NCBI GenBank assembly: GCA_025927595.1 | Contig: JAICLD010000002.1 | Location: 1-48,035 of the forward strand | Source of the DNA: Nocardioidaceae bacterium | GTDB taxonomy: Bacteria; Actinomycetota; Actinomycetes; Propionibacteriales; Nocardioidaceae | Direction of reading: 5' to 3' | DNA length: 48,035 nt | Shown: piece by piece, positions 2,125 to 35,228 of the stretch | Layout of the letters: every line of letters starts with the position of its first letter | How positions within the stretch are numbered: the stretch's first letter is position 1 | Translations under genes and position numbers: made by a program | The notes under the pieces: model-generated | What the model was told of the DNA's origin: nothing | The model's database searches: none | The model's input: the letters and a program-made list of their open reading frames with translations, nothing else

Positions 2125-4128
2125 TCAGGCGCGCCCGTGACGGGCGGCTGCGTGTCGGGCGATGCGGTCGAGCATGATGCCGAGCGCGGTGATGGCGATG
2201 CCGGCGGCCAGCCCCTTCCCGAAGAGCTGGTCCTGGGAGAAGCCGGCCACGACGAAGTAGCCCAGCGAGCCACCACCCACGAGGCCCCCGATCACGACCA
2301 TGGACAGCACGTAGAGCAGGCCCTGGTTGGTCGCCAGCACGACGGCCGCCCGCGACATCGGCAGCTGCACCTTGGTGATCATCTGCCACACCGTGGCGCC
2401 GGAGGACTCCGCGGCCTCGACCGAGGTCGGGGACACGCCGCGGATGCCGTCCGCCACCAGCTTCGTGGCGATCGGGACGCCGTAGGCCACCGCTGCGACG
2501 ATCGCGGTGAACCGCCCCACGCCGAACAGCGCGAGAGCCGGCACGAGGTAGACGAAGGGCGGGATGGTCTGCAGGGCATCCAGCAACGGCCGCAGGATCG
2601 TGTCGGTCCGGCCGCTGCGACCCATCGTCACCCCGAGGACCACGGACACGACCACGACGATGATGGTGGCGACGAGCACCGTGGTCAGCGTGATCATCGA
2701 GTCGTTCCACAGGCCGACGCCGAGCAGCACCGCCTCGCACACCGCGGCCGTCACCGTCGGCCGCCAGCCACCCAGCACGTAGGCCAGGGCCAGGATCGCC
2801 GCGGCGCTGAGCCACCACGGGGAGGACGCCAGCACGGACTGGAGCGGGTTGATCAGGCCGTAGCTGACGATGTTGGCGAACGCCGTCGTCACCTGCTCGA
2901 TCGCGTTGACGACCGCGTCGGTGACCGACGAGATGAAGCTGGAGACCGGCCTCTGCAGCGCCGGGTGCGCGGGGAACTGCGCGGCCGACAGACGCAGCCT
3001 CGAGACGTAGACGGCCACCACGGTGACGACCGCGAGCACCACCAGCACGATCCTGCGCATCCGCCGGGTGCCACTGCCGGCCCTCGCGAGGATCTCGCCG
3101 CGCTGGCTCGCCGCGGTCGTGGTCCGGTCGAGCATGATCGCGATGACCACGATGAGACCGCCGGAGACCGCGGACCCGCCGATGTCGAGCGCCGCCAGTG
3201 ACTGGGTGACCGGGACGCCGAGGCCGGGTCCGCTGACGAACGCGGCGATGATCGCCATCGACAGCGCGGCCATCATGCACTGGTTGATGCCGACCACGAT
3301 CGTGCGGCGCGCCATCGGCAGCTGGACCTTGCGCAGCTGCTGCCCGGACGTGCAGCCCAGCGACTGCGAGGCCTCGACCGCACCCTCGGACACTCCGCGG
3401 ATCCCGTGCTCGGTGATGCGGATCAGCGGGGGGATGGCGTAGATGACGGTCAGCACGATCGCCGACGCGGTGCCGATGCCGAAGATGAGCGCGAGCGGCG
3501 GCAGGTAGGCGAACGACGGCATGGTCTGCATCGCGTCGAGCAGGGGGGTGATCGAGGCGCTCACCCCTTTGCGGCGCGCCATCCAGATGCCGATGGGCAC
3601 GCCGATCAGGACGCAGATCGCCACGGCGAGCAACGTGATCAGCAGCGTGTCGATGCTCTCCCGCCAGTAGCCGAGGTAGCCGAACGCCAGGGTGCCGACG
3701 AGCACCAGGACCGCGGACCGGACGCCGGCGAGCGCGAACGCGGTGAAGACCAGGAGCGCCAGCACCCCGACCCAGCCGATCTCGGGGACGGGACGGCCGG
3801 GGGCCGGGGTGCTGAAGAGGTACTGCAGGTGGGTGAAGAGCCAGTTGAGCCCGTCGCTGAGGCCGCCGATGACCTTGAAGAAGACGTTGGTCTCACGGGC
3901 CGCGTCGAAGGAGTTCTTGACGTCGTTGAGCCAGCTCTGGAACGACGTGAGCTGGGCGCCGGGAAGCGCCAGGGTCTGGTGGCCCCGCAGCACCAGCCAG
4001 CCGAGGACCCAGACGGCGACCACGACCGCGAGACGGGCGAACGTGTGGGTCGGCCGGTGGCTCTCGACCCGTGGCTGCTCCTCCTGCACCGGCGAGGTGT
4101 CGGCCGGCCGGGTGACCGTGGTGCTCAC
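2125..4128 (-). CDS. Glycine betaine/proline ABC transporter permease with two tandem permease domains in one polypeptide
   Basis: Two BPD_transp_1-like halves: ...[25 protein letters not shown]...[18 protein letters not shown]... and ...[25 protein letters not shown]...[18 protein letters not shown]...; GTG start at 4128 overlaps ATPase stop. Confidence 0.9.
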
Positions 4129-5201
4129 GACGCCACGTCCTCCTCGGCGACGACCACGCGCAGGATGTCCTCGTCCTCGACGATGCCCAGGAACGTCTCG
4201 CCGTCGAAGACGCGGACAGGGTCCTGAGCGGCGAGCACCTGCCGGGCCGCGTCCCGCACGACCTCGTCGGCCTGCAGGGCCGGGCCGCGCCCGGGGTCGC
4301 CTCCCTCGGGACGCCGGCACACGTAGCGCAGCGTCAGCACGTGGGAGCGGGGCACGTCGCTGACGAAGTCGCGGACGTACTCGTCCGCCGGGTTGGCGAC
4401 GACCTCGGCCGGCGTGCCGATCTGGACGATCTCGCCGTCGCGCATGATCAGGATCCGGTCGCCGAGCTTGAGCGCCTCCTGGAGGTCGTGGGTGATGAAG
4501 ATCATCGTCTTCCCGACCTCCTGGTGCAGCCGGATGACCTCGTTCTGCATGTCGCGGCGGATCAGCGGGTCGAGCGCCGAGAACGGCTCGTCGAACATCA
4601 TCAGCGTGGGGTCGACCGCGAGGGCGCGGGCCAGCCCCACGCGCTGCTGCATGCCACCGGACAGCTGGTCGGGGAAGGACCCCTCGTTCCCGGCGAGCCC
4701 GACGAGGTCGACCATCTCCTGCGCCCGCACGCGCCGTTCGCTCTTGCCGAGCCCGCGCACCTCGAGCCCGAAGGCCACGTTGTCGATCACCGTGCGGTGC
4801 GGCAGCAGTCCGAAGTGCTGGAACACCATGGCCACGTGGTGCCGGCGCAGCTCGCGCAGGTGGCCCGCGTCGGCGGAGGTGATGTCCTCACCGCCCATCC
4901 GGATCGTGCCGGCCGTCGGCTCGATCAGGCGCGTCAGCAGCCGGACGAGCGTCGACTTGCCGGAGCCGGAGAGCCCCATGACGACGAACACCTCACCCGG
5001 CTGCACCGAGAAGGAGACGTCCTTGACCGCGGTGACGCATCCCGTCTTGGCCTGCAGCTCCTTGCGGGACAGCGCCGCGTCCGGCGTGCCGATCACCTTG
5101 TCGGCACGGCTGCCGAAGATCTTCCACAGGCCGTCCACCACCAGGGCCGGGTCGCCCGCAGGAGTGGAACGGCCCTCGGTCGCGGGCACGGTCTGGGTCA
5201 T
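4125..5201 (-). CDS. Glycine betaine/proline ABC transporter ATP-binding protein (ProV/OpuAA type)
   Basis: Walker [25 protein letters not shown] signature, [22 protein letters not shown]-like C-terminal remnant. Confidence 0.93.
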
Positions 5202-17521: not shown

Positions 17522-18583
17522 CTAGCCGCTGCCGGCCCCGCTGCCGAACTCGGCGACCGGCGGGTCCACGGGCGGGGTGACGGGCGGGGCGACCGGCGGG
17601 GCGACCGGAGGGCCGTCCGGCGCCTCGTCGGAGCGGATGTCGATGCGCCAGCCGGTCAGCCGCGCGGCGAGCCGCGCGTTCTGGCCCTCCTTGCCGATGG
17701 CCAGCGACAGCTGGTAGTCGGGCACCACGACCCGGGCCGAGCGCGCGGCGAGGTCGACCACCCGGACCTCGGAGACCCGCGCCGGTGAGAGGGCGTGGGC
17801 CACCATCTCGGCCGGGTCCTCGGAGAAGTCCACGATGTCGATCTTCTCCCCGTGCAGCTCGCTCATCACCGCACGGACCCGCTGCCCCATCGGCCCGATG
17901 CAGGCGCCCTTGGGGTTGACCCCCGGCACCGTCGAGCGCACCGAGATCTTCGTGCGGTGCCCGGCCTCCCGCGCGATCCCGCAGATCTCGACGGTGCCGT
18001 CGGCGATCTCCGGCACCTCGAGCGCGAACAGCTTCTTGACCAGGTTGGGGTGCGAGCGCGACAGCATCACCTGCGGGCCCCGCATCCCCTTGCGCACCGA
18101 CACGACCAGGCAGCGGATCCGGGAGCCGTGCTCGTAGCGCTCCCCCGGGACCTGCTCGCCCGCCGGCAGCAGCGCCTCGAGCCGGCCGAGGTCGACCATC
18201 ACGTCACGCGGGTCGCGGCCCTGCTGGATCACCCCGGAGATGATGTCGCCCTCCTTGCCCGAGAACTCCCCGAACTTGACGTCGTCCTCGGCGTCGCGCA
18301 GCCGCTGCAGCATGATCTGCTTCGCTGTGGTCGCCGCGATCCGGCCGAAGCCGTCGGGCGTGTCCTCGTACTCCGCGAGGACCGTCCCCTCCTCGTCGGT
18401 CTCGGCCGCGAAGACGCTGACGTGGCCGCTCTTGCGGTCCAGCTGCACGCGCGCGTGCGGCTGGGCGCCGGGGCTCTTGTGGTACGCCGTCAGGAGCGCC
18501 TGCTCGATCGCCTCGACGAGGATGTCGAAGGAGATCTCCTTCTCCCGCTCCAGCGAGCGCAGGATGTTCATGTCGATGTCCAT
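17522..18583 (-). CDS. nusA: Transcription termination/antitermination factor NusA with PPV-repeat C-terminal tail
   Basis: [53 protein letters not shown]...; S1/KH regions; C-terminus [32 protein letters not shown]. Confidence 0.96.
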
Positions 18584-23940: not shown

Positions 23941-23980
23941 GGTCAGACCATGTCAGAACATGGCAGAACATGTCAGAACA
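23941..23980. repeat. Four tandem 10-bp repeats (minus-strand consensus TGTTCTGACA)
   Basis: ggtcagacca / tgtcagaaca / tggcagaaca / tgtcagaaca at exact 10-bp spacing; last unit overlaps GNAT stop codon; upstream of phosphoesterase start. Confidence 0.85.
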
Positions 23981-24818
23981 TGATCGTCGCGAAGGTGGCG
24001 CTCTGCCGGAAGCCGACCCGTTCGTAGGCACGCCGCGCGGGGGTGTTGTGCGCGTTCACGTAGAGCGAGACGACCGGCGCGATGTCGGCGAGCGCCAGCG
24101 ACACCACCGCGGCCATGCCGGCCTCCGCCAGCCCCTCCCCGCGACGGTGCGGGGCGACGTACACGCCCTGGACCTGGCAGGCGTACGGCGACGTGGCGGC
24201 CACCTCGGCCTTGAAGACCACCCGCCCGTGCTCGAAGCGGGCGAAGGACCAGCCGCGGGAGACCAGCTGCGCGACCCGGGCCCGGTACAGGTCGGCGCCG
24301 CCCCCGAGCTCCGGGGAGACGCCGACCTCCTCGGTGTACATCGCCACGCACGCCGGGTAGAGCGCGTCGAGGTCGGACCGCTCGCTGCGCCGGACCAGCG
24401 GGTCGGGGGCGACGGCCGGCTCGGCGCCGATCTCCAGGTGCGGCTGGTCCCAGCGCAGGTCCCGCGCCGGTCCCCAGTGCGGCTCCAGCCGCCGCCACAG
24501 CGACGCGACCGTCCCCGCCGGCCCCACGATCGTCGCGCAGCGACGGCGCTGCGAGACGGCCCGGGCGGCGAACGCCTCCAGGGCCGGCTCGCCCGCCTGC
24601 ACCGGCACGAGGTTCGCCGCGGAGTGGCACGCCGCGACCAGCCGGCCGTCCACCAGGTAGCCCCACATCTCCCCGCCCAGCCAGCGCGGGTCCAGCCCGG
24701 TCAGGCGGCTGCGGTAGTCGGCGAACGCGTTGACCACCGGGTCCTGCGCGGCGAGCTCCAGCATCGCGGGGAGGTCGGAGGGGCCGAGCAGGCGCAGTCC
24801 GTGCTGGGTGCCGAGCAC
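23973..24818 (-). CDS. GNAT family N-acetyltransferase with N-terminal DUF4081-like domain
   Basis: VLGTQHGLRLLGPSDLPAMLELAAQDPVVNAFADYRSRLTGLDPRWLGGEMWGYLVDGRLVAACHSAANLVPV; C-term GVYVAPHRRGEGLAEAGMAAVVSLAL...NTPARRAYERVGFRQ; GTG start. Confidence 0.85.
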   Translation of the reverse strand: MLGTQHGLRLLGPSDLPAMLELAAQDPVVNAFADYRSRLTGLDPRWLGGEMWGYLVDGRLVAACHSAANLVPVQAGEPALEAFAARAVSQRRRCATIVGPAGTVASLWRRLEPHWGPARDLRWDQPHLEIGAEPAVAPDPLVRRSERSDLDALYPACVAMYTEEVGVSPELGGGADLYRARVAQLVSRGWSFARFEHGRVVFKAEVAATSPYACQVQGVYVAPHRRGEGLAEAGMAAVVSLALADIAPVVSLYVNAHNTPARRAYERVGFRQSATFATIMF

Positions 24819-32356: not shown

Positions 32357-33754
32357 GTGACCTTCACCTCGACCGACACCCCCGTCACCGCCCCCGGCAC
32401 CGCGCCCGCCTCCTCCACGGCCGGCGGCCCCGGGCTCCCCCAGGAGCGGCGCCTCGTCACGGCGATCCCCGGACCCCGCTCACAGGAGCGCTTCGAGCGA
32501 CGCGGCCGGCATGTCGCCGCCGGGGTGGGCACCACCCTGCCCGTCTTCGTCGAGTCCGCGGGCGGCGGCGTCCTCGTGGACGTCGACGGCAACTCGCTGA
32601 TCGACCTCGGCTCGGGCATCGCGGTCGTCGGCGTCGGCAACGCCGCCCCGCACGTCGTCGACCGCGTCGTCGAGCAGGTCCGCGCGTTCACCCACACCTG
32701 CTTCATGGTCACGCCCTACGACGTGTACGTCGACGTGTGCGAGCAGCTCGGGGAGCTGACGCCCGGCGACCACGACAAGCGCTCGGCGCTGTTCAACTCC
32801 GGCGCCGAGGCGGTCGAGAACGCCGTCAAGGTGGCCCGCTCCTACACCGGGCGCAGCGCCGTGGCCGTCGTCGACCACGCCTACCACGGCCGCACGAACC
32901 TCACGATGGCGATGACCGCGAAGTCGATGCCCTACAAGCACGGGTTCGGGCCGTTCGCCAACGAGGTGTACCGGGTCCCGACGTCCTACCCGTTCCGGGA
33001 GCCGACGGCGATCTCCGGCGAGCAGGCGGCCGATCGCGCGATCGACGTACTCGAGAAGCAGGTGGGGGCGACCGACCTCGCGTGCCTGGTGATCGAGCCG
33101 ATCCTCGGCGAGGGCGGATTCGTGGTGCCGGCCGACGGGTTCCTGCCTCGGCTGCGGGAGTGGACCGCGGCGCACGGCGTGGTGCTGGTCGCCGACGAGA
33201 TCCAGACCGGCTTCTGCCGCACGGGCGACTGGTTCGCGTGCGACCACGAGGGCGTCGTCCCCGACCTGATCACGACCGCGAAGGGGATCGCCGGCGGCCT
33301 GCCGCTCTCGGCGGTGACCGGCCGCGCGGAGATCATGGACTCCGTGCACAACGGCGGCCTGGGCGGCACCTACGGCGGCAACCCGGTCGCCTGCGCGGCG
33401 GCGCTCGGCGCCATCGCGACCATGCGCGAGGACAACCTGTGCGGGCGGGCCCGCGAGATCGGCGAGCTCGTCGGCGGCCGGCTGCGCGGGATCGCCGAGC
33501 GGCACCCCTGTATCGGCGACGTCCGCGGCCGCGGCGCGATGATGGCGGTCGAGGTCGTCGACGAGGACGGCCGCAGCCCGCACCCGGTGCGTGCGGCGGC
33601 GGTCTCGGCGTACTGCCACTCCCAGGGAGTCGTGACGCTGACCTGCGGGACCTACGGCAACGTGCTGCGGTTCCTGCCGCCGCTGGTGATCTCCGACGCC
33701 CTGCTCGGGGAGGGGTTCGACGTCGTCGCCGAGGCCTTCGACGCCACCGCCTGA
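32357..33754 (+). CDS. gabT: 4-aminobutyrate transaminase
   Basis: [117 protein letters not shown]. Confidence 0.92.
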
Positions 33755-33762
33755 CCCGCCGC

Positions 33763-33872
33763 GACGGCGCGTCTGGCGCTTCCCGACCCGGTGAGACGGC
33801 GCGTCTGGCGTCCTACGAGGCGGTGAGACGGCGCGTCTGGCGTCCTACGAGGCGGTGAGACGGCGCGTCTGG
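33763..33872 (+). repeat. 32-bp-period direct repeat arm, four cores GACGGCGCGTCTGG
   Basis: Cores start at 33763, 33795, 33827, 33859; units 2 and 3 are identical gacggcgcgtctggcgtcctacgaggcggtga. Confidence 0.95.
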
Positions 33873-33885
33873 TGAAGTTGCCCCG

Positions 33886-33981
33886 CCAAATGCGCCGGGT
33901 CAGCAGCACACCGCCCGCCAGACGCGCCGGGTCAGCAGCATGCAGCCCGCCAGACGCGCCGGGTCGGCAGCTTGCAGGCGA
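33886..33981 (-). repeat. 32-bp-period inverted repeat arm, three units CCAGACGCGCCGGGTCAGCAGC...
   Basis: Units start at 33886, 33918, 33950; core CCAGACGCGCC is the reverse complement of the forward-arm core. Confidence 0.95.
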
Positions 33982-33998
33982 TCGGTCGTACGTCGGAG

Positions 33999-35228
33999 CT
34001 AGTCCTGCGGCGGGGGACGGTCACGGCTGCCAGCGTCGCGCTGGCCCCACGGTGCGCCGTACTGCGTGAGCAGGTCCAGGAACGGGACGGCGTCGAACGC
34101 CTCGGGCCCGAGCACACCTGTCCCGGACCAGGTCCCCCTGGCCAGCAGCTCCAGCGCCACGACCGGGTTGACGGCGGTCTGCCAGACGACGCACTGGTGA
34201 CCGTACTCGCTCATCGACCACTCGTTGTCCACCACGTGGTAGAGGTACGTCGACCGGGGCCGGCCGTCCTTGCCGGTCCCGGTGACCTGCAGCCCCGCGC
34301 AGGTCTTTCCGCGCATCCTCTCCCCCAGCGTCGCGGGGTCGGGGAGGCAGGCCGCGACGACGTCGCGAGGGCTGACCTCGACACCGCCGGCGCGGACCTT
34401 CTCGGTGCGGTCCAGGCCGAGCAGGTGCAGCGTCCGGAGCACGCCGATGAACTCCTCGCCGAGGCCGTACTTGAACGTCACCCGCTTCGCGTCGACCCAG
34501 CGCGGCATGAGGAGCACCTCCTCGTGCTCGACGTTGACGCACTCGACCGGCCCGATCCCCTCGGGGAAGTCGAAGACCTCCGGCTCGCTGAACGGCTCGG
34601 TCGTGAACCAGTCGCGGCCCTTCTCCCACACCACCGGCGGGTTGAGGCACTCCTCGATCGTCGTCCAGATGGAGAACGAGGGAGCGAAGTCGTGACCCGC
34701 GACGGTCAGGTTCGCCCCGTCGCGAACGCCGAGCTCGTCGATGTCCTCGAACAGGTGGTCCGCGGCGTACCTCGCGAACACGTCGGACAGCCCCGGCTCG
34801 ACGCCGATCCCGCACAGCGCGAGGCGCCCCGCGCCCTCCCAGTCGGCGGCCTTCGCGAACTGCTCGTCGCCAAGCTTCACGCCGACCTCGGAGTACGGCG
34901 CGTCGGGATGGGGCCGCGACAGGCTCATCGCCATGTCGAGGTAGTCGGCTCCCCCGTCGTACGCGCCGTCGAAGATGGGCATCACGAACCGCGGGTCGAC
35001 GGCGTTCATCACGTGGGTGACTGCGTGCTCACGGACGAGGGACGCGACGGCGGAGGCCGACGACGCGTCGACCCGTGCGGCCACGAAGCGTCCGTCGGCG
35101 GCCGCAGCCCGCTCCGCGCGCGCGAGGTCGTAGTCGCTGACGACGAGCAGCTCGAAGAAGTCGCGGCGGGCCGCGATGGAGGCGAACGCCGCGCCGACAC
35201 CGCCGGCGCCGACGAGGAGGATCCGCAC
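33999..35228 (-). CDS. Saccharopine dehydrogenase family oxidoreductase
   Basis: MRILLVGAGGVGAAFASIAARRDFFELLVVSDYDLARAERAA...VTHVMNAVDPRFVMPIFDGAYDGGADYLDMAMSLSRPH. Confidence 0.85.
   Translation of the reverse strand: MRILLVGAGGVGAAFASIAARRDFFELLVVSDYDLARAERAAAADGRFVAARVDASSASAVASLVREHAVTHVMNAVDPRFVMPIFDGAYDGGADYLDMAMSLSRPHPDAPYSEVGVKLGDEQFAKAADWEGAGRLALCGIGVEPGLSDVFARYAADHLFEDIDELGVRDGANLTVAGHDFAPSFSIWTTIEECLNPPVVWEKGRDWFTTEPFSEPEVFDFPEGIGPVECVNVEHEEVLLMPRWVDAKRVTFKYGLGEEFIGVLRTLHLLGLDRTEKVRAGGVEVSPRDVVAACLPDPATLGERMRGKTCAGLQVTGTGKDGRPRSTYLYHVVDNEWSMSEYGHQCVVWQTAVNPVVALELLARGTWSGTGVLGPEAFDAVPFLDLLTQYGAPWGQRDAGSRDRPPPQD

Follow-up and report, generated by a model that had tools for sequence, protein, structure and literature searches.

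Most of what is known about palindromic repeats of the REP type at gene ends comes from Proteobacteria, and these repeats are linked to RAYT transposases; REPINs are paired REPs mobilised by RAYT. The gaps that hold REPs separate convergent or unidirectional genes, and the repeats stand some 20 bp or less from a gene 3' end (PMC3733652). BIMEs are clusters of alternating, regularly spaced units, with gyrase as the ligand of BIME-2 arrays and IHF as that of BIME-1 (PMC2817692). Translation is reported to be lowered by some REPs that stand within 15 nt of a stop codon (PMC12306157). We describe here an array that belongs to a genome-wide family and that we interpret, with moderate confidence, as a dispersed element of REP/BIME-like type at gene ends, which would act in both directions and consist of phased half-sites recognised, by a putative factor, through their sequence. 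It looks like a new kind of REP-like gene-end palindrome, and it probably marks or protects transcript ends.

The window, i.e. the whole stretch of DNA that was analysed (48,035 nucleotides of a Nocardioidaceae bacterium, contig JAICLD010000002.1 of assembly GCA_025927595.1), carries a two-armed array with a 32-bp period in both arms (Table 1); TRF on the window gave the forward arm at 33763-33872 (score 176) and the inverted arm at 33882-33977 (score 143). As the first-pass annotation had stated, the array lies between convergent genes, for an aminotransferase class III (PF00202) and a saccharopine dehydrogenase (SDH; PF03435 and PF16653), and the four forward cores that it had placed at 33763, 33795, 33827 and 33859, spaced exactly 32 bp apart, were borne out on re-reading the sequence. 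For the inverted cores, the 32-bp period and the exact cores at 33918 and 33950 stood, but the core at 33886 reads CCAAATGCGCC, not CCAGACGCGCC. The natural unit begins two bases ahead of the core as given, with the anchor GACCCGGCGC; in the window forward arm the anchor reads GAGACGGCGC, a variant of it, with GCGACGGCGC in unit 1. The palindrome AGACG-GCG-CGTCT, which had been seen in the forward core, is present in the window forward arm but is not a feature of the family: elsewhere it occurs at few loci (C13, C53, C127), because GAGAC is an uncommon variant of the anchor. Across the centre, 25 nt separate anchor from anchor, which is the most frequent distance in the genome of the window. 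A search of the window array against Rfam gave no gathering-level match (best E=0.88, far under the cut-off).

Table 1 Features of the two-armed array and its flanking genes. Coordinates are those of the window; SDH, saccharopine dehydrogenase.
Feature	Coordinates	Strand	Remarks
Aminotransferase class III gene (gabT-like), TGA stop codon, followed by the forward arm	33752..33754	+	ORF end 33754; Pfam PF00202 E=5e-122
Forward half-site 1, outermost, GCGACGGCGCGTCTGGCG, 6 nt past the stop codon	33761..33778	+	
Forward half-site 2, GAGACGGCGCGTCTGGCG	33793..33810	+	
Forward half-site 3, GAGACGGCGCGTCTGGCG	33825..33842	+	
Forward half-site 4, GAGACGGCGCGTCTGGTG, forming the left side of the palindromic centre	33857..33874	+	
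9-nt loop of the centre	33875..33883	no strand	sequence
Inverted half-site 1, right half of the centre, - strand GACCCGGCGCATTTGGCG	33884..33901	-	2 mismatches to the family 18-mer
Inverted half-site 2, - strand GACCCGGCGCGTCTGGCG	33916..33933	-	exact match
Inverted half-site 3, outermost, - strand GACCCGGCGCGTCTGGCG, 33 nt past the SDH stop	33948..33965	-	exact match
Saccharopine dehydrogenase-like gene, 3' end toward the inverted arm	33999..35228	-	PF03435, PF16653

The architecture was surveyed at loci from six genomes, with 121 element records mapped. The repeat unit, with a period of 32 bp, consists of the 10-nt anchor GACCCGGCGC, followed by some 8 nt that are characteristic of the genome and then by 14 nt that vary; the anchor is constant across genomes whose post-anchor segments differ (GTCTGGCG in the genome of the window; RTCCGCAGG in G006; RTCTGAAC in G324; GAAGTGGCT in G273; RTCCTGACC or RAACTGACC in G196). 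Polarity was inward, with all forward units ahead of all inverted units, in 77 of the 78 both-arm elements, the sole exception being an array of fully palindromic units. The innermost anchor-to-anchor gap is fixed per genome: 8 nt in 28/29 cases in G324, 25-27 nt in 16/23 in G196, 24-25 nt in 8 of the 9 both-arm elements detected in the genome of the window (G000), and mostly 25-28 nt in G300. The longest arms hold 8 and 10 units (L171). Within a search window of 28 to 34, the spacing was exactly 32 bp in all 35 adjacent exact-anchor pairs of G196, and neighbouring spacers were unrelated (identity about 0.3) despite this constancy; such a phasing constraint fits the recognition on one helix face that the 32-bp spacing had suggested at the outset.

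The motif might have been spread at random over the genome without phasing; the opposite was found, a phased family against reversed controls. In the genome of the window (an assembly of 294 contigs), the 11-nt core GGCGCGTCTGG occurs in 46 tandem pairs vs 0 for the reversed pattern, and the 18-mer, within 2 mismatches, in at least 114 copies vs 5 for the control, so that the abundance of the family is not due to chance. Since many arrays lie at contig ends, their true number in this genome is probably higher; the arrays appear to break short-read assemblies of these organisms.

Within the Nocardioidaceae the family is patchy. The tandem 10-nt anchor occurs in 48 of 341 genomes, from 5 genera, some of these matches being lone pairs of the kind that chance would give; when an 8-nt anchor was required at a spacing of exactly 32 bp, 28 of the 341 genomes have at least 6 in-phase pairs, up to 153, and the reversed controls gave 0 in nearly all. 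At least one match was found in 6 of the 7 genomes of the same genus, with only 2 in G005 (vs 1 in the control) and none in G003. At orthologues of the SDH locus, the window array is absent in five relatives, and the sixth, G002, has two related units of its own type; this lack of conservation across the genus, together with the patchy distribution, indicates that the element is dispensable. Elsewhere in the phylum, among 396 genomes spread over it, only two others matched, once each and in a chance-like manner, and a wide distribution in Actinobacteria was rejected on this basis. A phage origin was set aside, with one pair in each of 18 viral contigs and no sign of arrays, and so were hits in unrelated phyla (Oscillospiraceae, Gemmataceae and others), which amount to one or two pairs per contig. 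In G003, a relative without the family, three 32-bp units with another core, GCCGGGACGC, follow immediately on a stop codon (L209:14040-14136, contig C1); this array was found once in that genome.

The conservation of anchor, phase and polarity is sequence-specific, and the elements are placed at gene ends. Among 76 gaps with elements (G004, G196, G300 and G324), 29 were tandem, vs 102 of 194 background gaps of at least 40 bp at the same loci; convergent gaps were in excess (44/76 vs 20/194; Fisher p=3e-15) and divergent gaps in deficit (3/76 vs 72/194; p=3e-9), with genes called by a codon-usage script and single contexts possibly wrong, above all the few divergent ones. Both-arm elements in tandem gaps were closer to the upstream stop in 26 of 32 cases. 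The commonest distance is -2: the outermost anchor (TGACCCGGCGC) provides the stop codon of the gene, through its TGA, at 32 of 127 gene ends. The array-free G003 has locus-specific hairpins in its convergent gaps, at the same place as the arrays, from which it appears that the niche itself is the gene end.

Like the REPs and BIMEs of E. coli, Pseudomonas, Xanthomonas and others, the elements are short extragenic palindromic repeats in tens to hundreds of copies, in-phase pairs numbering over 100 in the richest genomes, and they are sited at gene 3' ends, in convergent and tandem and rarely in divergent gaps. Unlike the alternating units of BIMEs, the arms in Nocardioidaceae are strictly polar toward one centre (77/78), and, unlike those of REPs and BIMEs in general, the units are half-sites with a 32-bp period. 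In contrast to the GTAG/CGTC REPs, for which Actinobacteria are missing from the phyla given, there is no GTAG tag and no consistent CGTC tag at the stem foot; the bases at -4 to -1 follow YRYY in most cases, often as CGCC, with CGTC-like letters in a minority. RAYT (IS200/605-like Y1_Tnp, PF01797) was found in none of 43 genomes, 22 of them array-positive, with control genomes giving matches; a RAYT/Y1 transposase as mobiliser was rejected on this absence. As in REPINs, the unit is two inverted copies round a short centre and the families are dispersed, but the spacing constraint, the many tandem copies per arm and the lack of a detected RAYT set the elements apart. With bidirectional intrinsic terminators they share the palindromic centre and the position between convergent stop codons, but differ in a sequence common genome-wide, long phased arms and the lack of a U-run.

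Given the lack of alternation, of the tag tetranucleotide and of RAYT, the family is REP-like in its niche and not a member of a known REP family. No paper on gene-end repeats in Nocardioides was found within the limits of the literature and databases searched, in which the anchor sequence gave only chance matches, judged by title; in this literature the two-armed gene-end array family is previously undescribed. An actinobacterial family thus occupies the REP niche without RAYT and with a stricter geometry (polar arms, 32-bp phase, fixed centre), which makes directly testable what recognises or spreads gene-end repeats.

Arms gain and lose whole units. Around six elements that they share, the genomes G273 and G274 have an identity of about 99%; the element is present in both at 6/6 loci, and three of the six differ by whole units (32, 32 and 64 bp), which makes the arrays candidate typing markers. 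Anchors are conserved and spacers are fast-changing: substitutions between the two genomes amount to 0/336 in the anchors, 6/400 in the next ten bases, 19/520 in the spacers and 58/14937 in the flanks. The spacer changes lie in clusters, a pattern to be expected of gene conversion between units, so that the independent events number fewer than 19 and p-values that count the 19 substitutions singly are too small. Units are also copied between loci in at least one genome, as follows from G324, in which a 14-nt spacer is common to another locus in 27 of 55 units, vs 5.0 expected and a maximum of 10 in column shuffles.

The RNA of the window element folds better than shuffles on both strands (z -3.2 and -3.8). 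The ladder-like foldback that had been proposed, with forward and inverted half-sites paired in register, did not hold up as a conserved structure: outer forward/inverted pairs are no more complementary than within-genome shuffles (0.715 vs 0.713 shuffled in G196), and outer-pair covariation was also lacking in G000 and G300. The central half-site pair covaries in G196, with an identity of 0.908 within elements vs 0.747 shuffled (0/1000 shuffles); in the other genomes, with few cases or little variation, the same test was not significant. Since only the central pair covaries, the ladder is a by-product of shared half-sites, and the arms, being without covariation, are not selected as RNA stems. 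A local RNA hairpin, GCGCC-GACCC-GGCGC, kept by G-U wobble was rejected, as A is common at -3 (an A-C mismatch); plain transitions explain the pattern, and the initial positions only looked wobble-compatible. A search for intrinsic terminators (GC-rich hairpin and U-run) gave 0 terminator-like sites in window positions 33000-35000, and at L201 a classic terminator stands ahead of the array, which is therefore not the sole transcript end at that locus; taken together, these results indicate that intrinsic termination alone is not enough.

Each element comprises a palindromic centre and two inward arms of half-sites of about 18 nt, at an exact spacing of 32 bp. In our interpretation, RNA polymerase that leaves either flanking gene would go from the stop codon straight into an arm read in the sense orientation, and the strong central hairpin may end or protect the transcripts of both genes; the phased half-sites would be docking sites for a putative sequence-specific factor on one face of the DNA, and the bound factor would turn the element into a bidirectional boundary. 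The genome-typical 8 nt suggest co-evolution of the site with this factor or with the enzyme behind the spread of the repeats. Possible, if on the doubtful side, is a lineage-specific nucleoprotein boundary at gene ends, in which a putative protein would sit on three-turn-phased half-sites that converge on a palindromic centre behind stop codons, would co-evolve with the 8-nt specificity segment, and would separate convergent transcription units and/or spread the repeats; if true, it would form a class apart from the REPs that RAYT drives.

Several observations would be expected of a selfish or neutral dispersed repeat, i.e. a miniature element spread by an enzyme or by recombination, with arms lengthened by slippage, that is tolerated directly downstream of stop codons for want of other features at that place: the patchy distribution, the spacers common to different loci in G324, the whole-unit gains and losses with conversion-like clusters between close genomes, the overlap of units with stop codons, such as insertion at gene ends would produce, and the in-frame 33-bp array within a coding gene of G006. 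We hold such an origin to be unlikely, though far from negligible, for the anchors stay unchanged beside changing spacers (0/336 vs 19/520), the exact 32-bp phasing outlasts spacer turnover, the centre keeps pairing in G196, and the element is found in both G273 and G274 at all six loci compared. The arms might also be operator-like or nucleoid-protein arrays that bear on DNA topology between convergent genes and have no RNA role, by analogy with the gyrase-binding BIME-2 and the IHF-binding BIME-1 (PMC2817692). Three-turn phasing, inward dyad symmetry and enrichment where positive supercoils meet would agree with this, yet gyrase is conserved whereas the 8-nt part varies by genome and most relatives are array-free, and we consider the explanation improbable. 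That ordinary intrinsic terminators had their stems amplified locally by chance is very improbable indeed: the centre is a strong hairpin and the array-free G003 has locus-specific hairpins at the same place in convergent gaps, but such stems need no common sequence, whereas the anchor is common to all elements of a genome and across genera; there is no U-run, and the phasing of the arms would be left unexplained.

A four-unit array with a 33-bp and not a 32-bp period lies inside a predicted coding gene at L061:3013-3121 (G006:C94); the gene is magnesium chelatase-like by eye, the array codes the repeated peptide PDAPGRQDDET, and the in-frame period suggests that it is adapted to the reading frame. 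Arms of the family enclose one and the same AbiEi-like gene (named by eye) in two species (L044:3028-4276; L073, around 3136-4216), with the forward arm ahead and the inverted arm behind. Arms as the ends of a gene-carrying transposon were rejected, since the genes that certain loci hold between their arms are not the same from locus to locus. One array passes into a 9-bp slippage array, with cores 9 bp apart (G000:C186:7254-7320). Certain centres (L116, L126, L182) have within them a repeat of the GCGAGCGCAGCGA type, which may be a further dispersed palindrome of G196 and G300. Elsewhere in the window, a 10-bp tandem repeat, GTCAGAACAT, is found at 23942-23982 (4.1 copies, 90% match) and a 12-bp tandem repeat, GGCGACCGGCGG, at 17552-17622 (5.9 copies).
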